Positions 215 through 10,827 of a stretch of 64,000 nucleotides of DNA are shown piece after piece. How positions within the stretch are numbered: the first letter of the stretch is position 1; each line of letters starts with the position of its first letter. The position numbers and the translations under genes are program-made. The notes beneath the pieces were generated by a model, which was given only the letters and a program-made list of their open reading frames with translations, ran no database searches and had not been told where the DNA came from. Origin of the DNA: Marchantia polymorpha subsp. ruderalis (taxonomy: Eukaryota > Streptophyta > Marchantiopsida > Marchantiales > Marchantiaceae); the NCBI GenBank assembly GCA_037833965.1, contig AP031354.1:25150001-25214000 (forward strand). The letters are read 5' to 3'.

Positions 215-597
215 AATAATCTGGCGCTGCCCCTGGCGCATTGGGCGCATTTCTTGGAGTTCGGCAGTCTCCTTGTTCGAATGCGAGGGAGGAAAGGGGG
301 AAAGAGATGTATCCGAAACATAGAAAACCATGAAGTAATAAATAAGTAAACATATAAAAACATAAAGTAATAAATAAAAAAACAAAAGGCAATAAATAAA
401 AACCAGAAAAAAACATAAAGTTATAAATAAAAAACATATTAAAACATAAATTTAAAAATATAAAAATATATAAAAACATAAAGTAAGGAAAAAACATGTC
501 GGAGGATAAAATAATAAATAATTAAACATAGAAAACCATAAAGTAATCAATAAGTAAACATATAAATTCAAAAAGTAATAAATAAAAACTCGACTGA
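215..597. other. AT-rich stretch, no gene seen
   Basis: Dominated by short A-rich direct repeats of the type aaacataaagtaataaataa. No convincing coding sequence: frames crossing it give hydrophobic Phe/Tyr/Leu-rich low-complexity translations. It is partly the reverse complement of the AT-rich DNA at the end of the unit (about 10697-10760), so the two make a loose inverted repeat across each unit junction. The same stretch recurs in every unit. Confidence 0.7.
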
Positions 598-654
598 CGA
601 CTGACGGTCTGACTGCGGACTGACGGGGTCAGTCCGCAGTCAGACCGTCAGTCG
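598..654. repeat. Perfect hairpin, 27-bp arms, 3-base loop
   Basis: Arms 598-624 and 628-654 are exact reverse complements separated by ggg. They consist of actgac/gtcagt words that also occur, less perfectly, before the other element tips (for example about 3366-3380 and 10551-10566). It lies directly outside the left tip of the composite element. Confidence 0.9.
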
Positions 655-656
655 TG

Positions 657-1255
657 TTCATGTCTTTCCTCAGTGACCCTCTATCTTAACCCTTAACCCG
701 CTCGGCACTGCGCGCTCTCGCTCGTCTCGCACTCGCTCCTCCTCTCGACTCGTTCCAGCCTTTCGTGTTTCCGCTCGTCGACCAGCCAGAAGCGCAACAG
801 CATAGCGGTTTTTCCGGGCACGGCGGGCGCAAGGGAAAGGTAAGACGCGCTCATCTTCCAATTTGCTAAAATCCAAGTTCCTGCATTCAATTTTGTGCTG
901 TCCAAGTTCCTGCTGCCTTTGAAAGTCTTGGGTAGTGTCATCTGCTCCATAGCGCGAAGGGACGCCCCACCTGTCCTCCTGACGCTCGTCTCGATCCTGT
1001 GCGGGCGCAAGGGGAGGTAAGACGCTCTCCCTCCTCAATCGACTCGCTTCAGAAATCTTGTTTCAATTTCGTACTGGTTCCAGCTGTGTTCATAGAAGTG
1101 AGCTGTGTTTCTGAAGGGCGAAGGAGGATGAAGCGGTCGAGGGAGGAAGGGTCTTCGGCCTCTGATCAGACCATCAACTTTATCAACAAAGTCAAGAGAC
1201 GATTTTCAGCGGAGGAGCACGTGTACAAGGCGTTTCTGGAGATTTTGAATATGTA
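657..1255 (+). repeat. Left inverted arm of the composite element
   Basis: Starts ttcatgtctttcctcagtgacc, continues with tctatcttaacccttaaccc (degraded telomere-like) and a CpG-rich segment, and ends in the SIN3-like fragment. Its partner is 7742-8343 on the other strand. The arms differ by scattered substitutions, so the duplication is older than the tandem array. Confidence 0.8.
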
Positions 1256-1388
1256 CCGAAAAGGCTTTTCAATTACTTCTTTCGCAGACAGTGCAAACCC
1301 ATTCTCCAATCTACCCGCCCACCTCCTCCAGAAGCGCACCAGCCAGTCTTCTTCTTCTTCTTCTTCTTCTTCTTCCTTGAAGCCCTAG
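1128..1388 (+). pseudogene. SIN3-like N-terminus/PAH-domain fragment (copy A)
   Basis: From ATG 1128 the frame opens with MKRSREE, like the MKR start of plant SIN3-like proteins. A segment resembling a paired amphipathic helix follows, with [23 protein letters not shown] and LNMYRKG. SIN3 proteins are scaffolds for histone deacetylase complexes and PAH domains bind repressors. Only about 45 residues match. After about 1264 homology stops and the frame runs through unrelated sequence and a serine run encoded by a TCT microsatellite to a stop at 1386-1388. A full SIN3 protein has over 1000 residues, so this is a captured fragment. It sits at the inner end of the left inverted arm. Family assignment comes from motif recognition, without alignment. 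Confidence 0.7.
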
Positions 1389-1770
1389 TGCTCTTACCCT
1401 CTAAACCTCCATCCCTGCTGTTGTCCTTCTCTTCAAGTGTTTTCTGCGTTTCTTCGAACAAATTCCTGTCATCAATCAAAGCCATCTCATAGGGATGGTC
1501 TACCGCTTCGATACCAGGTATGCCAGTCTTCTTCTTCTTCTTCTTCTTCTTCATTCTTCCTTGAAGCCCTAGTGCTCTCACCGTCTAAACCTCCATCCCT
1601 ACTGTTGTCCTCAATGACTTGTGAGCCTGCACCTGCTTGTCAACCTACTCCATACTTCTCAGGGGCCAATTTTTTGTCACCAGGAAGAAGAAGAAGAAGA
1701 AGACTGGCATATTCGGTATCGAAGCGGTAGACCATCCCAATGAGATGGCTTTGATTGATGACAGGAATTT
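1345..1770 (-). other. Unknown Lys/acidic coding-like fragment with (TCT)n/(GAA)n, duplicated and inverted
   Basis: A block with a TCT run, cttgaagccctagtgctct and aacctccatccct occurs at about 1347-1425 and again at 1527-1612. The part at 1459-1550 is repeated inverted at 1682-1769 (tggtctaccgcttcgatacc and its complement). Read on the minus strand, 1380-1550 stays open and gives an acidic peptide (VDHPYEMALIDDRNLFEE) between lysine runs. I do not recognise it. It could be a captured exon of a lysine-rich nuclear protein. The inverted part would form a stem of about 85 bp. Confidence 0.4.
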
Positions 1771-2751
1771 GGGAATAGGGTAGCAGGAGCACAGCAGCGG
1801 CAGCAGCAGTAGGCATACCAGCCCTGATGTGATCGAATCATGGCGCATTTTGTTATCTTTTCCTATGACAATCACTCGCATGAGAGATGAAGGAATAAGA
1901 AATGAAATAAAAAAATAAAACCAATGAATCAAATGGATAAAAAACAAACTTGAATAAAAAGACAAAACTAAAGACTCTGAAGAATGATCTGAACAGTTGA
2001 TCTTTGAGCCAATGTTGAGATTATTTTTTTTAATCATAAATGATCATGGATAGATAAATATGACTCTGAAGTATGATCTGAACCGTTGATCTTTGTATCA
2101 ATGTTGGGATTTCTCTTCGATTCTAAATAATCATGGATAGAAACAGAAACATTTAGAATTAAGCAATCAGGTTAGAAATTATAATTTATAATGCACTTTT
2201 TTTTCTATTTTAAAAATGATACTCATGCAATAAATTTGCATCTTTTTGAATAGACTTGGCTATAGAATCCTGCAAGAATTGAGCCCAAGATAATCTGGAG
2301 TTATGAAAATTTGATAACTCTATTCTTGACTGACCGTCAGTCGTTAGTCGAGTTCATATCCTTCCTCAGTGACTCTAATCGATAGAAGAGTGGCCTTAGG
2401 TATTTATTTTTAATATGTTAACTTAATTATTTCTTCATGGATTCAGTTTCTATGTCTTTCTTTCTTTATATCTTCTGTAATCATTTCTTCACGATTTCGA
2501 TTAATTTTTTATGTCACTGTTTCCCTACATTTTCGTAATTATATTTATTTTAATGCAATCATTTCTGTACATTTGACTGATTGAATATTTTCTGAAATTT
2601 TCTCTTTAGATTTTACTTTTTTATTTTTCATGGAATTGTTTTTTAATGTGCTTGTTTCTTTCGGAATATGTGATTATATATTTATTATTTTTTTAATTAT
2701 CTCATGATAATTAAGGAAATAAGATAACAAAACCCCCTGGAACCCTTTCAT

Positions 2752-2876
2752 CGACGTGATGTCCATCACGTCCGGACTGGTGTAACCCAGATCCGATAAG
2801 ACCGCTGCGGTTAAGCGCCCTTGGTTGGGAAGAGGTCTGGGATGGGTGACCTCCACTCCGTGGAACTTCCGCAGAT
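2752..2876 (+). ncRNA. 5S rRNA-derived Pol III-type unit (plus strand)
   Basis: The order of motifs follows plant 5S rRNA: ggtgtaacccagatcc (5S: ataccagc...ggatcc), A-box-like ggttaagcgccc at 2809-2820, and C-box-like gggatgggtgacctcc at 2839-2854. The 3' end differs from 5S (actccgtggaacttccgcag), and the 5' leader gacgtgatgtccatcacgtc is also not 5S. T-runs that could stop Pol III begin at about 2910. This fits a 5S-derived SINE or a 5S-carrying TRIM such as Cassandra LTRs rather than a working 5S gene. Transcription is not shown. Confidence 0.55.
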
Positions 2877-2967
2877 CATAAAGATGAAAAAGTTCCTAAA
2901 CTCCTATATATTTTTTTGTTTTTTTTAATTTTTTTTTAATTTTATAAGAGGGGTCGATTCTATGAAT

Positions 2968-3273
2968 GCGACCGTGGCCACTCGGACCCTCGTACATACG
3001 AGGTACGATGTCAACAGTACGAGGTACGGAGGATATGCGACCGTGGCCCCTCGGACCCTCGTACATACGAGGTACGATGTCAGCAGTACGCGGTACGGAG
3101 GATATGCGACCGTGGCCCCTCGGACCCTCGTACATACGAGGTACGATGTCAGCAGTACGAGGTACGGAGGATATGCGACCGTGGCCCCTCGGACCCTCGT
3201 CCATACGAGGAACGATGTCAGCAGTACGCGGTACGGAGGATATGCGACCTTGGCCCCTCGTACTATACGAGGT
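2968..3273 (+). repeat. 69-bp tandem repeat, four copies plus a partial fifth
   Basis: Units start with gcgaccgtggcc at 2968, 3037, 3106, 3175 and 3244 (spacing exactly 69). Each full unit holds the near-palindrome CCTCGTACATACGAGG followed by tacgatgtcarcagtacg. Because 69 is divisible by three, several frames stay open on both strands; these are repeat translations, not genes. Confidence 0.95.
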
Positions 3274-3410
3274 AAAAATCGTTTTGAATAGACTTGGCTA
3301 TAGAATCCTGCAAGAATTGAGCCCAAGAAAATCTGGAGTTATGAAAATTTGATAACACGATTCTCGACTGACCGTCAGTCGTTAGTCGAGTTCATATCCT
3401 TCCTCAGTGA

Positions 3411-3434
3411 CCCTGAACCCTAAACCCTAAACCC
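3411..3434 (+). repeat. Telomere-like CCCTAAA stretch at an element tip
   Basis: Three near-perfect CCCTAAA units (first one CCCTGAA) followed by cccgctcgccaccgcgcgctc. Other copies: 14238, 25065, 35956, 46784 and 57675. The same motif in the same setting lies at 10596 (+) and 8300-8321 (complement). Confidence 0.85.
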
Positions 3435-3489
3435 GCTCGCCACCGCGCGCTCTCTCTGTGTTGATAATCTCTCTGGAGAAAAAGATGAT

Positions 3490-3944
3490 ATGGACGAGGG
3501 AGACAACATTTTTTATTGCGGTGAGGGAGGGGTCGTTAGGCGCGATGACGGTGTTGTCCTCCCACGAGCTTTTGATCCTCTGTTACTTCGGTGCTGCGAA
3601 CACCGAAGTTACAGAAGATGAAAAGCTAGCGGGAGGAAATCTTGCTTTGAAGAATTCTGCTGAGCTCGGACGATCAGTCCGAGTCGTTCGGAAGCACAAG
3701 GATTCCTTCCTTCGATCCAAATTCTTCTACAGCTATGACGGTATGTATAAAGTGAGAAGATTTTACAGCGAGCGAAAGAAGGGAGTTTGTTAGTCGCAGA
3801 GTTTGTCACATTTTTTAGATTCGATCTTTCGAGTAGGAGAAAGCATGGAAAAAATATGTGTGAAACTGGAAAAAAGCCAGAACTCCCAACTGATGAAACT
3901 ATATGTAATCTCGTCAGATCTAATGTTGTCAAGGACGAAAACAT
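3490..3944 (+). pseudogene. SUVH-type SRA (YDG) domain fragment, frameshifted
   Basis: ATG 3490 opens a frame with MDEGDNIFYCGEGG, like the SUVH stretch ending in YSGQGG. A second frame (2 mod 3) then gives EDEKLAGGNLALKNS, VRVVRKHKD and YSYDGMYKV and stops at 3791-3793. A third gives FVTFFRFDL and GKKPELP, like the domain end (FKFRL...GQPEL). The order is that of the SRA domain of plant SUVH histone H3K9 methyltransferases, which binds methylated cytosine. At least two frame changes, and no pre-SET or SET part, mean it cannot make a SUVH protein; unspliced introns could explain part of the frame change. The sequence from 3945 on is shared with 10401 and is probably element sequence. Confidence 0.7.
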
Positions 3945-4235
3945 TGATGTGAAAACAAACAGAACACAATTCATTTTATTTAGGTTCATTGACGATGTCT
4001 TCATTCAGTGGCCAGTCACGGTCCCTCGATTCTTGACTGACTGGCGACTGACCCCACGGTTTATTCCGTCAGTTGTCAAGATTCTTCACTGAGTGCCGAC
4101 TGAACCCACGGTTTATTCCGTCCGTCGTCAATCACAGTCCCTCGATTCTTGACTGACTGTGAGTCGTCAGTCCAGTTCATATCCTTCGTCAGGATATGGA
4201 CTCCACTTGACGACTGACTGCAGACCGTTCCCCGG
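3945..4235. other. Element spacer rich in actgac words, no gene seen
   Basis: 3945-4060 matches 10401-10515. From 4040 on, gattcttgactgact and ccacggtttattccgtc are repeated several times. Frames through it continue the SUVH reading frame by chance only. Confidence 0.6.
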
Positions 4236-5082
4236 ACGTTTCAAGATTCCTGCCGGGCGCGAGGGGGCATCCCTCGGACGCCTCTAGATTCCTGTCGGGC
4301 GCGAGGAGACGCTCGTTTCACGGTGTCTGGAACCCGGCCGGGCGCAAGGGGGACATCTCGGACGCGTCTAGATTCCTGCGTGGCGCGAGGGGGCATCACT
4401 CGGACGCATCTATATTCCTGTCGAGCGCGAGGGGACGCGCGTTTCACGGTGTCTGGGACCCGGCCGGGCGCAAGGGGGATTTCTCGGACTAGTCTAGATT
4501 CCTGTGGGGCGCGAGGGGGCATCCCTCGGACGCGTCTATATTCCAGTCGGGCGCGAGGGGATCTCTCGGACGGCCTCTACATTCCTGTCGGGCGCGAGGG
4601 GGCATCCCTCGGACGCGTCTATATTCCTGTCGGGCGCGAGGGGATCTCTCGGACGTCCTCTACATTCCTGTCGGGCGCGAAGGGGCATCCCTCGGACGCG
4701 TCTATATTCCTGTCGGGCGCGAGGAGATCTCTCGGACGGCCTCAACATTCCTGTCGGGCGCGAGGGGGCATCCCTCGGACGGCCTCTACATTCCTGTCGG
4801 GCGCGAAGGGGCATCCCTCGGACGCGTCTATATTCCTGTCGGGCGCGAGGGGATCTCTCGGACGGCCTCTACATTCCTGTCGGGCGCGAGGGGGCATCTC
4901 TCGGACGCGTCTATATTCCTGTCGGGCGCGAGGGGATCTCTCGGACGGCCTCTACATTCCTGTCGGGCGCGTAGGGGCATCCCTCGGACGCGTCTATATT
5001 CCTGTCGGGCGCGAGGGGATCTCTCGGACGGCCTCTACATTCCTGTCGGGCGCGAAGGGGCATCCCTCGGACGCGTCTAGAT
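4236..5082 (+). repeat. GC-rich minisatellite, 41/42-bp units
   Basis: About twenty units of attcctgtcgggcgcgaggg followed by either gatctctcggacggcctctac (41 bp) or ggcatccctcggacgcgtctat (42 bp). In the right-hand half the two types alternate, giving an 83-bp dimer. The first part is more diverged and includes two longer units with tttcacggtgtctgg and cccggccgggcgcaag. The long open frames here (271 and 156 codons on plus, 93 and 92 on minus) are repeat translations rich in Arg, Gly and Ser, not genes. Confidence 0.95.
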
Positions 5083-5138
5083 TCTCCAAAAAATACGGAA
5101 AAATGACTCTGACTCGGACTACCTTAGGAGCTTTATGA

Positions 5139-5262
5139 TTTGCGGAAGTTCCACAGAGTGTGGTCACCCATCCCAGACCTATACCGTTCCAAGGGCGCTT
5201 AACCGCGGGGTTCTGATGGGATCTGGCATACCAGCCGTGATGCGATCGGAATCACGTCCATG
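5139..5262 (-). ncRNA. 5S rRNA-derived Pol III-type unit (minus strand)
   Basis: The minus strand reads ggctggtatgccagatccca, tcagaaccccgcggttaagcgccctt and gggatgggtgacc in 5S order, closer to 5S than the plus-strand copy (it keeps gatcccatcagaac). The tail gtggaacttccgcaaatca is the family tail. On the minus strand T5 and T6 runs follow at about 5088-5105, suitable as Pol III stops. Probable 5S-derived retroelement part; transcription is not shown. Confidence 0.55.
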
Positions 5263-5720
5263 AAAGAGTCCCCTGAGATTTTGTTATCTTGTCCTGTGAT
5301 AATTCTTCGTTTGAGAGATAAAAGAATAAAAAATAAAATAAAAGCAAAAAAATAAAAGTTTAAAAAACAATGAGATAGATATATAAACGAATTCCATAAA
5401 AGATTACCAAGGAGATAACAGATAAATACGACTCTGACTCGGAAGTATGATCTGAACCGTTGATCTCTGAACCAATGTTAGGATTTCTTTCTGAATTATT
5501 AGTAATCCTGGATAGAAATAGTTCCCTTTAGAAATTGGCAATCAGATCAGTAATTTTTATTTATGATGTTTTAATTCTTTTTTTCTTAGAAACTGATATT
5601 CCTGCAATAAACTTGCATGAAAATCTCTTTGAATAAACTTCGTTATGGAATTCTGCAAGAATGGAGCCCAAGATAATTTGAAGTTATAAAATTTGAACCT
5701 AGAAAAACAATTGAGAGCGA
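5263..5720. other. AT-rich element body, no gene seen
   Basis: Contains diverged copies of the body found in repeat R: ataattcttcgtttgagagataaaag, tgatctgaaccgttgatctc, ggatagaaatag, and ttctgcaagaatggagcccaag. No open frame with recognisable content. Confidence 0.65.
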
Positions 5721-5785
5721 CACGTGTTCAGTATTCTCGCATTAATGGCACGGGTATTGTAAATCAGGTCTTACGCGTATGAATA
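5721..5785 (+). promoter_or_regulatory. Promoter-like module 1: G-box, weak TATA
   Basis: CACGTG at 5721-5726 and tatgaata at 5778-5785 (TATA motif with one change) precede actgcagctgcacc. It is a diverged duplicate of 6134-6199. No gene follows directly downstream on this strand. Other copies: 16548, 27375, 38266, 49094 and 59985. Confidence 0.35.
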
Positions 5786-6133
5786 CTGCAGCTGCACCTT
5801 CCCTCTCGTCCCTTCGGGGACATCTGAGTCACTGAGGGAAGACATGGACTTGACTGACGACTGGCGAAAGACATCTTTCCTGGATGCCGATCCTTCGGGG
5901 ATCTCCCGGACGGCCTCCATAAACGATTACGGATAGAAACAGTAACATTTAGAAATTACCAATCAGGTTAGAAATTATTGTTTATTAATTATTATTTTCT
6001 ATTTCGAAAATGATATTCATGCAATAAATCTGCATCTTTTTTAATAGACTTGGCTATACAAATTCTGCAAGAATTGAGCCCAAGATAATCTGGAGTTATA
6101 AACATTTGAAACTAGAAAAACATTTGAGAGCGC

Positions 6134-6199
6134 CACGTGTTCCGTATTCTCGCATTAAAGGCATGAGTGTTGTAATCTCAGGTCTTACGCGTATAAATA
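6134..6199 (+). promoter_or_regulatory. Promoter-like module 2: G-box and TATAAATA
   Basis: CACGTG at 6134-6139 and TATAAATA at 6192-6199, about 53 bases apart, then actgcagctgcacctcccctctcg, a pyrimidine-rich stretch as at many plant start sites. Transcription would run into the GA-rich tip of the inner element. It might be a transposon promoter. Other copies: 16961, 27789, 38680, 49508 and 60399. Confidence 0.4.
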
Positions 6200-6237
6200 C
6201 TGCAGCTGCACCTCCCCTCTCGTCTCTTCGGGGACAT

Positions 6238-6309
6238 CCGATCAGCGTCCGTTGGTAGCCGCTGATCGGCCGGGCGCAAGGGGAAGGTGAGTGGCGCGTC
6301 CCCTTGCGC
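6238..6309. repeat. Two adjacent 10-bp-stem hairpins
   Basis: ccgatcagcg (6238-6247) pairs with cgctgatcgg (6260-6269). gcgcaagggg (6274-6283) pairs with ccccttgcgc (6300-6309). They lie just after the TATA-bearing module and before sequence resembling the inverted arms (aggaacttgcaaatcggcacaaaattgaaag). Confidence 0.6.
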
Positions 6310-6410
6310 CCTTGACAGGAACTTGCAAATCGGCACAAAATTGAAAGCAAGAATTGAAGAAGAGAGTATGAGGGGAAGGCGAGCAGCAGCAGCAGGGCCA
6401 GAGAAAGGGG

Positions 6411-6429
6411 GAGAGAGAGAGAGAGAGAG
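6411..6429 (+). repeat. (GA)n microsatellite
   Basis: About nine GA repeats within a purine-rich stretch (6361-6470), with CAG repeats on either side (6382-6395, 6511-6530). The length looks the same in every unit. Confidence 0.85.
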
Positions 6430-7408
6430 GGCGGAGACAGAGAGAACAAGCGAGAGCGAGAGCGCGCAGTGGCGAGCGGCTTTGGGGCTTTAGGTTTAGG
6501 GTAGCAGGAGCACAGCAGCGGCAGCAGCAGGAGGCATACCAGCCCTGATGTGATCGAATCATGGCGCATTTTGTTATCTTTTCCTATGATAATCACTCGC
6601 ATGAGAGATGAAGGAATAAGAAATGAAATAAAAAAATAAAACCAATGGATCAAATGGATAAAATAAAAAACTCGAATAAAAAGACAAAACTAAAGACTCT
6701 GAAGAATGATCTGAACAGTTGATCTTTGAGCCAATGTTGAGATTATTTTTTTTTAATTATAAATGATCATGGATAGATAAATATGACTCTGACTCTTGAC
6801 TCTGAAGTATGATCTGAACCGTTGATCTTTGTATCAATGTTGGGATTTCTCTTCGATTCTAAATAATCATGGATAGAAACAGAAACATTTAGAAATAAGC
6901 AATCGGGTTAGAAATTATTATTTATTATGCACTTTTTTTTCTATTTAAAAATGATACTCATGCAATAAATTTGCATCTTTTTGAATAGGCTTGGCTATAG
7001 AATCCTGCAAGAATTGAGCCCAAGAAAATCTGGAGTTATGAAAATTTGATAACTCGATTCTTGACTGACCGTCAGTCGTTAGTCGAGTTCATATCCTTCC
7101 TCAGTGACTCTAATCGATAGAAGAGTGGCCTTAGGTATTTATTTTTAATATGTTAACTTATTATTTTTTTATGTCACTGTTTCTCTACATTTTCGTAATT
7201 ATATTTATTTTAATGCAATCATTTCTTTACATTTGACTGATTGAATATTTTCTGAAATTTTCTCTTTAGATTTTACTTTTTTATTTTTCATGGAATTTTT
7301 TTTAATGTGCTTGTTTCTTTCGGAATATGTGATTACATATTAATTATTTTCTTAATTATCTCATGATAATTAAGAAAATAATATAACAAAACCCCCCGGG
7401 ACCCTTTC

Positions 7409-7533
7409 ATCGACGTGATGTCCATCACGTCCGGACTGGTGTAACCCAGATCCGATAAGACCGCTGCGATTCTTCCCTTGGCACGGAAGAGGTCTGGGAT
7501 GGGTGACCTCCACTCCGTGGAACTTCCGCAGAT
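7409..7533 (+). repeat. Degenerate 5S-derived segment, A-box lost
   Basis: Same as 2752-2876 except that the A-box-like ggttaagcgccc is replaced by gattcttcccttggc. The C-box-like gggatgggtgacctcc is kept. Loss of the A-box makes Pol III use less likely. Other copies: 18236, 29064, 39955, 50783 and 61674. Confidence 0.6.
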
Positions 7534-7590
7534 CATAAACATGAAAAATTTCCTAAACTCCTTTTCGTTTTTTTTATTTTTTTATTTTTT

Positions 7591-7869
7591 TTAAAATTTT
7601 ATAAGAGGGGTCGATTCTATGAATGCGACCGTGGCCCCTCGGACCCTCGTACATACGAGGTACGATGTCAGCAGTACGAGGTACGGAGGATATGCGACCG
7701 TGGCCCCTCGGACCCTCGTACATACGAGGTAAAATTCAAATTCAATATTCAAAATCTCCAGAAACGCCTTGTACACGTGCTCCTCCGCTGAAAATCGTGT
7801 CTTGACTTTGTTGATAAAGTTGATGGTCTGATCAGAGGCCGAAGACCCTTCCTCCCTTGAACGCTTCAT
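7591..7869 (-). pseudogene. SIN3-like PAH-domain fragment (copy B)
   Basis: Same fragment as 1128-1264 but on the minus strand, start ATG at 7869-7867. It reads [11 protein letters not shown] where copy A has VKRRF; the Thr matches the usual SIN3 PAH form. Homology breaks within FLEILN at about 7742, where the frame enters the 69-bp repeat and runs on to a stop at 7591. It lies at the inner end of the right inverted arm, facing copy A. Confidence 0.7.
7625..7730 (+). repeat. 69-bp tandem repeat, one and a half copies
   Basis: Units begin at 7625 and 7694. The second ends in catacgaggtaaaattc where it meets the SIN3-like fragment. Other copies: 18452, 29280, 40171, 50999 and 61890. Confidence 0.9.
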
Positions 7870-8343
7870 CCTCCTTCGCCCTTCAGAAACACAGCTCACT
7901 TCTATGAACACAGCTGGAACTCAGCACGAAATTGAAACAAGATTTTTGAAGCGAGTCGATTGAGGAGGGAGAGCGTCTTACCTTCCCTTGCGCCCGCACA
8001 GGATCGAGACGAGCGTCAGGAGGACAGGTGGCGCGTCCCTTCGCGCTATGGACCAGATGACACTACCCAAGACTTTCAAAGGCAGCAGGAACTTGGACAG
8101 CACAAAATTGAATGCAGGAACTTGGATTTTAGCAAATTGGAAGGTGAACGCGTCTTACCTTCCCCTCGCGCCCGCCGTGCCAAGAAAAACCGCTATGCTG
8201 TTGCGCTTCTGGCTGGTTGACGAGCGGAAACACGAAAGGCTGGAACGAGACGAGAGGAGGAGCGAGTGCGAGACGAGCGAGAGCGCGCAGTGCCGAGCGG
8301 GTTTAGGGTTTAGGTATAGGGTCACTCAGAAAAGACATGAATT
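7742..8343 (-). repeat. Right inverted arm of the composite element
   Basis: Reverse complement of 657-1255, including the SIN3-like fragment, the segment with aagactttcaaaggcagcag, the cgagcgagagcgcgcagtgccgagcgg motif and the telomere-like tip. Frames of 86 and 121 codons on the plus strand here mirror the 122- and 105-codon minus frames of the left arm and are not recognised as genes. Confidence 0.8.
8300..8321 (-). repeat. Telomere-like TTTAGGG stretch at right tip
   Basis: ggtttagggtttaggtataggg is two and a half TTTAGGG units directly inside the tip gtcactcag. It is the mirror of the left tip at 690-702. Other copies: 19127, 29955, 40846, 51674 and 62565. Confidence 0.8.
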
Positions 8344-9704
8344 CCACCCCTAAAACCCCCAGGGAGAGCGGGAGGCAGGGAGGGAAGACCTGAGCCAGGC
8401 GTGCAAGCCTCCGCTCGCCCAGACCCAGGGGTCAGAGGACTAATTTCAATAAACTCCAATCCATTGCCATCAGGATCGCAACAGAATATTGAGGGCACCA
8501 TGCTGTGCTGGTACGGTATCCCTTCAAAAGAGAAATGAGGGTGTACGTTATAACAAAGCTTGTAGTCTGAACCACATCAAATCGTGTATATATACAACTG
8601 CAAACACATTAGAAAATTCAAGGTCAGCCTAAAATCCCAGTTTGCAACTACTCTATGCTCACCTGCTTTCTCAAGTGTTTGTCGAAGACCTTCAACATTC
8701 TTGCAGTTTAAGCATGCATGTCTGTCGAAACCACCATGCCCAGGCCGACCGTGAACTGGATCAGGGTTGGGAACCTCCATGATATGAATACCCTCAGCTC
8801 CCAAAAGTAACCAAGCTCCTCTATACGGAAGCTCTGGTCTATCTGGACTAGTCATCAAACCTATTGGAATGAATAAAAGATGGTTAGCTATTTGATGAAA
8901 GCGGTTCGTTACTCACAGATTGCTGGAATGCATCCTTCGCTGTATTTCATTTCCTCCTATGTCTAAGACTGACATAACTGTCAAATTAAATGGTACACAT
9001 ACCCAAAAGTCCACAGTAAAAATCCAACGATTTCTCCAGGTTCTCGCAACGAAAGGCGACATGATTCAGCCCTTTGAACTGGACTGCAATACCCAAACGC
9101 ACGTAGAATTACTTCTCAGCCATCCATGCACTAGTTGATTGAATAAGAAGAATGACATTGTTTCATGAATAGTATTCATATTGATGAATCAAATATATCT
9201 GCAAGTTTTTCCATCGATCGAGTTTGGCACCAATCTCTTTCCCTTGATAATATGGAACAAATGAATGAAAACAGACATGATTGTATGTGACTACAATAAA
9301 ATTTACTTACAATTGGTCGACTGTGACAATCTACGAATGAAATTTTGCTGAAAATTTATCTAGAAATGCTGAAAATGATGACAAACTTCACAGGTGTGGA
9401 ATAGAAACGTACATGAAGGAGAAACCGTGAGAGATTTCGAGTGAACATCTGCAGGCTCTTTTGAAGATTTTGTATCTTTGAAGGTTGGAGGTGCTTCCTC
9501 TTCAGTATTTTCCATCGGCAAATTCATGAAGTCTACACTGTTGTCGCGTTGAAATTTCTCCTCGGGTAGAGACACACCATGAACTGCCCCACGGGATCCC
9601 AGGTCATGCTCAGTGGACACAGATCCTTCTTCCGCTCTTCCTTCGTCCTTCAACATGTCCAATTCTTCAAGTTGATGGTTCTCCGCTGCTATGGCAGTTT
9701 TCAT
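8322..9704 (-). CDS. Glyoxalase-like VOC-domain protein, four exons (unit 1)
   Basis: Exons 9704-9413, 9083-9003, 8860-8663 and 8521-8322 join in frame through GT-AG introns of 329, 141 and 141 bases and give 256 residues. An in-frame TAA lies three codons before the ATG. Residues 1-97 are acidic, without clear homology. Residues about 98-218 form a VOC fold like plant lactoylglutathione lyase-like proteins: GLNHVAF, ENLEKSLDFY, LPYRGAWL, HIMEVPNPDP, DRHAC, IFCCDPDGNGLEF. The four metal-ligand positions of glyoxalase I appear kept (His105, Glu153, His172, Glu213). Residues 219-256 translate the adjoining GC-rich arm, so the natural C-terminus seems replaced. The substrate is unknown, and activity in methylglyoxal removal is not shown. 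It may be an expressed gene or an intact captured copy. Confidence 0.75.
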
Positions 9705-9862
9705 GAGTTTTTATGTGACAGTGGAATGAGGTATGAGGTAGCTGATCCCTGCCCCTGCCCCTGGGTCTGGGCGAACGCAGGCTTCCAGGCCTTCCTCACT
9801 TCCTCCCTTCTTCCCTGCCTCCCGCTTGCACGCCTGCTCAGGTCTTCCCTCCCTCCCTCCCT
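8358..9862. mobile_element. Gene-carrying segment between inverted GC-rich arms
   Basis: The minus strand at 8443-8358 (cccctgggtctgggcgagcg, ggcttgcacgcctggctcagg, tcttccctccctgcctcccgc) matches the plus strand at 9739-9862 (cccctgggtctgggcgaacg, gcttgcacgcctgctcagg, tcttccctccctcc), apart from about 50 bases missing in the left arm. The glyoxalase-like gene fills the space between. This resembles Pack-type non-autonomous elements. No target-site duplication could be identified. Other copies: 19185-20689, 30013-31517, 40904-42408, 51732-53236 and 62623 to the window end. Confidence 0.45.
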
Positions 9863-10400
9863 CCCGAGCCCCCTCCTGGCATTTCGCCCCTCTTCCTTAC
9901 GACCGAAATCGAAACACGCCCACTCCGCCTCTCGCTTTTCTCTCCTGCGCCCCTCCTCCCTGCTCCCGGATCGGACCCTCCTCACAAACGACAGCAAAGA
10001 GACAGTGGCAGACGGCGCTTGTAACTCAGGTGACTACTGGAACAGAATGGACGACTGGACCCTGATGCGGCTGAACTGCACCTCACCCCATATATATAGG
10101 TCGTCTATGCTACGTCCTCCGAATGAGGTAGCTGATCCCTGCCCTGCCCCTGGGTCTGGTCGAGCGCAGGCTTCCAGGCCTTTACTCACTTCCTCCCTTC
10201 TTCCCTGCCTCCCGCTTGCACGTCTTCCTTCCCTGACTCCCGCTCCCCCCCCCCCTCCTCACTAAAGGCTCAACACTTTTTGGGGGAACGCGAGGGAGCT
10301 GATCCCTGCCCCTGCCCCCCGCTGCCTCCCGCGCATCGCTCACTTCCTGCCTCCCGCTTGCATGCCTGGCGCAGGTGTTCCCTCCCTGCCTCCCGCTCAA
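9739..10400 (+). repeat. Pyrimidine-rich GC repeats, three direct copies
   Basis: Related copies start with gctgatccctgcc at about 9739, 10128 and 10290, each with cacttcctcc...ctgcctcccgcttgca. A C-run (11, or 10 in units 3 and 5) lies near 10245. Between the first two, 9990-10110 is less repetitive. Long frames crossing it (228 or 240 codons plus, 98 minus) are low-complexity and overlap the glyoxalase-like exon antisense. Other copies: 20566, 31394, 42285 and 53113. Confidence 0.8.
10091..10098 (-). promoter_or_regulatory. TATA-like motif upstream of the glyoxalase-like gene
   Basis: The minus strand reads cctatatatatggggtgagg. It is about 390 bases before the predicted ATG at 9704 and is the only TATA-like word in the GC-rich upstream region. 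A start here would give a long 5' leader through the GC repeats. Other copies: 20918, 31746, 42637 and 53465. Confidence 0.3.
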
Positions 10401-10690
10401 TGATGTGAAAACAAACAGAACACAATTCATTTCATTTTAGCTCATTGACGATGTCTTCATTCAGTGGCCAGTCACGGTCCCACGATTCTTGACTGAATAG
10501 TGACTGACCCCACGGTTTATTTCCCATGAAAATTTGATAACTCGATTCTTGACTGACCGTCAGTCGTTAGTCGAGTTCATATCCTTCCTCAGTGACCCTA
10601 AACCCTAAACCCTAAACCCGCTCGCCACCGCGCGCTCTCCCTGTGTTGATCAGCTCTCTGGAGAAAAAGATGATATGGACGAGGGAGGGG
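10401..10690 (+). repeat. Permuted remnant of the SUVH-element flanks
   Basis: 10401-10515 matches 3945-4060 (3' flank of the SUVH fragment) and 10527-10690 matches about 3341-3510 (5' flank, telomere-like tip and the first bases of the SUVH fragment, to gatatggacgagggag). The order is reversed relative to the inner element, as at a head-to-tail junction. Confidence 0.7.
10596..10619 (+). repeat. Three perfect CCCTAAA-type units
   Basis: The best-kept telomere-like stretch of the unit, followed by cgctcgccaccgcgcgctc. Other copies: 21423, 32250, 43142 and 53969. Three units at an internal site are far too few for a telomere. Confidence 0.9.
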
Positions 10691-10827
10691 TCGAGTTTTT
10701 ATTTATTACTTTATGTTTTTATATGTTTAATTTATATATATTATTATTTATTTCTTTATGGATTTATTGCTGATATGTGTATATACTGATTTCTTTATGG
10801 ATTTCTTTTAATAATATATATAAAAAA
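10691..10827. other. AT-rich unit end, no gene seen
   Basis: gtcgagtttttatttattacttt here is the exact complement of 572-594 of the following unit, giving an inverted repeat across the junction. In units 3 and 5 this region is 64 bases longer (32377-32440 and 54096-54159). The extra bases lie between two copies of attactttatgtttttatat, as expected for a deletion or duplication by short direct repeats. Confidence 0.75.

Follow-up and report, generated by a model that had tools for sequence, protein, structure and literature searches.

A 64,000-base stretch of the Marchantia polymorpha subsp. ruderalis genome (contig AP031354.1, positions 25,150,001 to 25,214,000; hereafter, the window) is a tandem array of a 10.83-kb repeat, with five units complete and a sixth represented by 9,736 bases. 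The unit carries a fragment of a SIN3-like gene twice, face to face at the inner ends of long inverted arms, and a fragment of an SUVH-type gene into which a stretch of its own coding sequence is inserted in reverse orientation. Both arrangements are predicted to fold into hairpins. The explanation we favor, on which our confidence is evenly balanced, is that the window represents a homogenized macrosatellite whose unit is composed of host-gene fragments and repeats, and whose hairpins would be diced into small RNAs that act on the array itself and possibly on the matching host genes. As for its kind, we judge this to be a candidate hairpin small-RNA locus, built from captured host-gene fragments in a satellite setting.

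A homogenized array with a SIN3-like fragment in long inverted arms

Repeat units begin at window positions 1, 10828, 21655, 32546, 43374, and 54265, with a spacing of 10,827-10,891 bases, and the end of the window cuts the sixth. Pairwise comparison of the units across their first ~9,735 positions gives 2-10 substitutions (0.02%-0.10%); these are head-to-tail copies that have been homogenized, as is characteristic of a macrosatellite. A 64-bp insertion near unit position 10,704 is common to units 3 and 5 and absent from units 1, 2, and 4 (unit 6 ends before this position and lies outside the comparison). Its presence in non-adjacent units is a sign of exchange within the array. Coordinates of individual features are those of unit 1.

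The initial annotation had described inverted arms of about 600 bp in each unit, copies of one SIN3-like fragment facing each other at their inner ends, and a read-through RNA that would fold into a long stem; our analysis recovered the arms and the facing copies and predicts the stem. The left arm (657..1252, plus strand) pairs with the right arm (7745..8341, minus strand), and alignment of 657-1252 with 8341-7745 gives 574 identical columns out of 597 (96.1%). This alignment scores 970 bits; when the unit was dinucleotide-shuffled 20 times, the best inverted repeat per shuffle ranged from 25.6 to 37.4 bits. Both arms are present in all six units, the left one identical throughout and the right one identical in five, with one listed site different in the sixth. 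Within the alignment, nine runs of 21 nt or longer are perfect, and together they cover 463 of the 597 columns. When 657-8341 is folded as a single RNA of 7,685 nt, the predicted minimum-energy structure pairs the arms over 579 bp, and it additionally contains 32 pairs in the SUVH hairpin and 86 pairs in an 88-bp repeat, both described below. In length, identity, and predicted pairing, the arms have the properties of a long inverted repeat of the Mu killer kind, near-perfect and capable of forming double-stranded RNA. Long inverted repeats in plants often yield small interfering RNAs (siRNAs).

The SIN3-like coding sequence occupies 1128..1265 (plus strand; 46 codons) in the left arm and 7747..7869 (minus strand; 41 codons) in the right. 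Their peptides differ at one of 41 residues, where the right copy carries the Thr of the SIN3 motif KTRF and the left copy has Arg. A phmmer search of PDB with the left copy returned SIN3 proteins (best E value 4.8e-11), and the best stretch corresponds to the second PAH of SIN3 in the three alignments shown. In Pfam, the left copy matches positions 1-18 only of the 45-position PAH profile (E = 9.5e-5; 22.5 bits, cut-off 21.3), and the 41 residues of the right copy, searched by themselves, have no Pfam match. MKRSREE is a sequence that we take to be the N-terminus of plant SIN3-like proteins. The fragment had been annotated as a SIN3-like start with a PAH, a description borne out by the SIN3-like and PAH matches, except that only half of one PAH is there. 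An open frame of 86 codons plus stop, beginning with ATG (1128-1388), is preserved in all six units; it ends in low-complexity serine, and the right copy continues into unrelated sequence. Upstream of the SIN3-like ATG lie 471 of the 597 bp of each arm, which may or may not belong to the SIN3-like gene.

A single clean inverted duplication does not account for the arms: a block between them at 1768..3074 (plus strand) recurs as a direct copy at 6489..7731 (plus strand; 86.5% identity over 1,322 columns), adjoining the right arm, and the inner ends of the arms differ, with the left SIN3-like sequence extending ~10 bases beyond the right copy. A better fit would be that one captured fragment inserted twice, in opposite orientations. 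Telomere-like ACCCTAA motifs mark a sequence of ~50-78 bp that recurs at the outer ends of the two arms (646-722 and 8276-8347), at both copies of the SUVH-type fragment (3380-3457 and 10565-10642), and near 6454-6502. It may be a common terminus beside which the fragments arrived, perhaps that of a capturing element.

An SUVH-type fragment interrupted by its own inverted copy

A second silencing-gene case, absent from the initial annotation, is an SUVH-type SRA-domain fragment at 3445..3790 (plus strand), identified from Pfam and PDB matches in two frames. The main part, 3590-3781, is a strong match to SAD_SRA (profile positions 64-132; E = 3.2e-14), and the first part, 3445-3540, is a weak one (positions 41-69; E = 0.028, below the cut-off). 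Among solved structures, the nearest are SUVH4 (E = 1.4e-7), SUVH5 (4.8e-7), and SUVH6 (8.1e-6), followed by SUVH9 (0.0029); we take SUVH4, SUVH5, and SUVH6 to be plant histone H3 lysine 9 (H3K9) methyltransferases. The profile match breaks off at 3540 and restarts at 3590 in another frame, from which we conclude that a hairpin insert interrupts the SRA fragment. This 81-nt hairpin (3557..3637) consists of an antisense arm (3557-3593) and a sense arm (3601-3637) matched at 32 of 37 positions; some of the fragment's own coding sequence is thus repeated within it in inverted orientation. The sequence read from the antisense arm is TEVTEDQKLVGG, to be compared with TEVTEDEKLAGG, and the peptide encoded by this arm (21 residues) had, by itself, no PDB match at E up to 10. 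The hairpin is identical in all six units. The start of the SUVH-type fragment, together with sequence upstream of it, is present a second time as a direct copy at 10526..10687 (plus strand; 96.3% identity to 3341-3502 over 162 bp).

MIRNA (microRNA) genes can be born by inverted duplication, and plant MIRNA precursors are recognized by a foldback with few mismatches in the 21-nt duplex. The predicted fold of 3557-3637 has this shape. Its energy is -48.6 kcal/mol on the plus strand and -55.3 kcal/mol on the minus strand (z scores of -8.84 and -11.57, respectively), and none of 200 shuffles was as good. Taking windows of 21-22 nt that lie in one arm and have at most five unpaired bases, we found at most four unpaired in 70 of 86 on the plus strand and in 92 of 95 on the minus strand; the best window has three unpaired bases on the plus strand and one on the minus strand. 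The predicted hairpin thus shows the few duplex mismatches expected of a MIRNA foldback. It has no Rfam match at E up to 0.5, and membership in a curated MIRNA family is not required of a young MIRNA gene.

The facing copies of each fragment also differ in a way that bears on their origin. The SIN3-like copies mismatch at 3 of their 123 coding bases, and the arms of the SUVH hairpin at 5 of 36. Of these eight differences, five are synonymous, with a chance probability of 0.022, 0.035, or 0.054 under transition weights of 1, 2, and 4, in a test that was chosen after the data were seen and that involves tiny numbers; the excess at third positions alone has P = 0.088. In the two clear amino-acid differences, the residue typical of the family resides on the copy that is antisense on the plus strand: the Thr of SIN3 KTRF (in three alignments) and the Gln of SUVH DQ (in SUVH4, SUVH5, and SUVH6). 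The third, Val versus Ala, leans the same way, with Val in SUVH5 and other residues in SUVH4 and SUVH6. This pattern would be expected of selected, guide-bearing copies if the array is transcribed from the plus strand, and equally of two donor genes diverging under protein constraint.

Other components of the unit and rejected assignments

A six-frame Pfam search of the unit at E up to 1, in which stops were read as X, returned SAD_SRA, PAH, Glyoxalase, and two matches below their own cut-offs, RsgA_N (E = 0.13) and TRAP_alpha (E = 0.59), which we regard as chance; it returned no transposase or reverse transcriptase domain. Within their long frames, PAH (20.5 bits in a frame of 1,599 residues; cut-off 21.3) and Glyoxalase (19.2 bits; cut-off 20.6) fall slightly short, and the isolated fragments exceed the cut-offs (22.5 and 24.8 bits, respectively).

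The glyoxalase-like gene fragment lies at 8451..9527 (to 9710 at its widest; minus strand) and has several apparent exons separated by apparent introns. The Pfam match is confined to 9001-9078 (E = 3.2e-5). Stretches 8655-8867 and 8451-8522 alone have no Pfam match, and their assignment to the gene was made by eye; 8655-8867, the middle stretch, also has no PDB match at E up to 0.01. A frame at 9570-10262 has no PDB match at E up to 0.1. The gene is possibly near complete in the unit. It has no inverted copy: its best inverted pair, with itself or with the rest of the unit, scores 23.8 bits, below the 25.6-37.4 bits of the shuffled units.

A third hairpin at 1459..1771 is formed by arms at 1459-1546 and 1684-1771 (88 bp; 95.5% identity) and has an open frame across it. 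Its frames yielded no convincing Pfam or PDB match. Candidates for the minus-strand frames 1276-1584 (DUF4609, E = 0.14; best PDB E = 2.5) and 1643-1837 (CBS, E = 0.084; MreC, E = 0.14) were set aside with no identity assigned, and the plus-strand frame 1389-1727 has no Pfam match. Inverted pairs with no known gene content are also found in the unit. They include a palindrome of GACTGAC-type motif directly outside the left arm (597..655), 5S-like pieces, and AT-rich and GC-rich repeats, in a sequence that is generally rich in minisatellites and other duplicated pieces. At 4233-5084 there is a GC-rich minisatellite with periods of 83 and 126 bp; by eye, its core resembles short stretches of the arms (GGGCGCAAGGGG before GTAAGA), as if from a common source. 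A relic resembling 5S ribosomal RNA (rRNA) lies at 5130..5253 (minus strand; Rfam E = 0.0077, 29.7 bits against a gathering score of 38). Further 5S-like pieces on the plus strand (64-110, 2679-2883, and 7380-7539) mean that both orientations occur in the unit, and two of the pieces belong to the duplicated 1.3-kb block, one in each copy.

We considered several established classes for the array or its parts. A ribosomal DNA spacer was rejected: in the 64,000 bases no Rfam family, rRNA included, reached its gathering score, a search with the bacterial code detected no transfer RNA in the window, and only the weak relic at 5130-5253 recalls 5S rRNA. Rfam matches to mir-341 (E = 3.8e-5 and 2.1e-4; 36.9 and 34.3 bits, gathering score 90) fall on the palindrome at 584-667 and arise because this palindrome is self-complementary. 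Those to MIR6426 (E = 0.23 and 0.37; 25.2 and 24.4 bits, gathering score 96) fall on a TCT-repeat hairpin. We read neither as a sign of belonging to the family. The long inverted arms also raised the question of a Pack-MULE. In such elements, gene fragments are captured between long terminal inverted repeats, which are flanked by a target-site duplication of ~8-11 bp, and are moved by a transposase that non-autonomous members lack. Gene fragments are indeed present, one of them in the arms themselves. No transposase domain was found in six frames, and with borders shifted by up to 6 bases, the best 8-11-bp match between the flanks of the arms was 5 of 9, a score equaled by 280 of 300 random border pairs. 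It is for want of a target-site duplication that the array is not filed as a MULE, and we treat its 81-nt hairpin as a MIRNA-like candidate rather than as an established MIRNA gene.

Precedents and possible action of the hairpins

On paper, the array would resemble miR820 and Mu killer in how it works. Rice CACTA transposons carry the microRNA miR820, whose foldback resembles OsDRM2 and which lowers OsDRM2, and its carriers have multiplied in some species (PMC3459959). The likeness is to repeated DNA containing a hairpin that derives from a fragment of a host silencing gene, here SUVH-type SRA sequence in the sense arm, and whose copies rise as the element multiplies (PMC3459959). In miR820, the carrier is a CACTA transposon and the target a DNA methyltransferase, and a small RNA, cleavage, and co-evolution are reported (PMC3459959); the array described here, by contrast, is a tandem satellite, combines SUVH-type with SIN3-like fragments, and is known from sequence alone. 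For maize Mu killer, a partial inverted duplication, a hairpin RNA of ~4 kb made by read-through is proposed, and it is a proposed source of siRNAs (PMC3440606). The array shares with it an inverted duplication and a proposed read-through hairpin RNA. However, Mu killer consists of transposon sequence and acts to silence the transposon (PMC3440606), whereas host-gene sequence lies in the stem here and the locus is tandem.

Two further comparisons concern the origin of the hairpins. Like MIRNA genes that originate by inverted duplication (PMC3237417), the 81-nt hairpin has arms that are coding sequence of its putative target. Unlike them, it sits in a satellite and is at present a purely genomic observation. 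Host-gene fragments in repeated DNA are likewise a feature of Pack-MULEs and Helitrons (PMC3310237, PMC11986588, and PMC13317346), and possible siRNA cross-talk from gene-capturing Helitrons of Brassica napus onto the donor genes is described (PMC11986588). In contrast to these elements, the unit showed no transposase domain and no target-site duplication at the arms, and it is tandem in this stretch. Neither miR820, nor DRM2, nor satellite occurs as a word in the text of a 2026 review on how plant transposons capture genes (PMC13317346), and the titles and abstract openings searched, with subscription literature largely outside their range, contained no satellite or hairpin directed against SUVH or SIN3 genes. 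What differs from the known cases is the homogenized satellite setting and the pair of putative targets.

In the explanation that we favor, RNA transcribed through an entire unit, from either strand, would form a 0.6-kb SIN3-like stem, the 81-nt SUVH hairpin, and the 88-bp hairpin. Dicer-like enzymes would cut these hairpins into small RNAs, which would act first in cis, keeping the array silent, and would be able in principle to act in trans on matching parts of SIN3-like and SUVH-like genes. The sequence shows the array, the inverted arms, the gene identity of the two fragments, and the predicted folds; we infer the capture of fragments from host genes, their transcription and dicing, and action in cis and in trans, and the composite as a whole seems to us as apt to be right as wrong. 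Several observations weigh against it. The SIN3-like stem requires an unbroken transcript of 7,685 nt. The arms mismatch at 23 of 597 columns and the arms of the SUVH hairpin at 5 of 37 positions, unlike newly made, perfect repeats. The part of the SUVH-type fragment that is in facing copies amounts to only ~37 bases, the other copy (10526-10687) being direct, and gene debris in a satellite also explains the anatomy. The last of these points is the substance of the main rival, which we consider possible but somewhat unlikely: a satellite trapped fragments of genes, its arms are two opposite insertions, its SUVH hairpin is the scar of a template switch, and no meaningful transcription or dicing occurs. 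The unclean structure of the arms, with their differing inner ends and the direct rather than inverted copy of 1768-3074 at 6489-7731, fits such an inert history. So does a unit full of minisatellites, duplicated pieces, and inverted pairs without known gene content, which also includes a glyoxalase fragment not evidently related to silencing. Inertness accounts less readily for the fact that both nameable silencing-gene fragments are strongly inverted, while the glyoxalase fragment has no inverted pair above shuffle level. That two of the three named fragments, both from silencing genes, are inverted and the third is not favors an anti-silencing role, in a sample of three and with the 88-bp hairpin unclassed.

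The boldest reading takes this role to be selected. The satellite would be an anti-silencing RNA locus with more than one target, whose hairpin small RNAs lower a SIN3-like histone deacetylase scaffold and an SUVH-like H3K9 methyltransferase. Two layers of silencing would thereby be weakened, more strongly with copy number, relaxing the silencing of the array and of other repeats and helping to maintain the array. Consistent with this are the inverted copies of two silencing genes in one unit, the family residues (Thr of KTRF, Gln of DQ) on copies that are antisense on the plus strand, the five synonymous differences out of eight (P = 0.022-0.054), and the precedent of miR820 acting through OsDRM2 (PMC3459959). 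Yet the synonymous excess is small and post hoc, fits two donor copies equally well, and gives P = 0.088 at third positions; the 21-residue antisense peptide lacks a PDB match even with E values up to 10 allowed; the ratio of two in three comes from few fragments and was assessed in hindsight; and the titles and abstract openings searched contain no such case. We regard selection for anti-silencing as unlikely. The initial annotation had proposed an anti-silencing role on the strength of the SIN3-like stem. The stem is upheld as a prediction and the role itself is one that we infer, but it is more plausible than that annotation could know, because a second silencing gene, of SUVH type, has a hairpin of its own and miR820 with OsDRM2 offers a precedent. 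Finally, the frame at 1128-1388 could encode a half-PAH microprotein that interferes with SIN3 complexes, an idea that its intact ATG-to-stop frame in six of six units allows. We consider this highly improbable, given that half a PAH domain would be unlikely to fold, that the frame ends in low-complexity serine, and that the right copy runs on into unrelated sequence.

To our knowledge, the use of small RNAs by a genomic parasite to counter silencing is known from only a few cases, miR820 being one. If the anti-silencing reading is true, the array would extend this strategy to satellites, suggest how arrays spread or stay transcribed, and imply a simple dose relation between the size of an array and silencing. 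Even if it is inert, the array provides a clean example of gene fragments made into hairpins inside a satellite, which may be a route by which new small-RNA genes are born.

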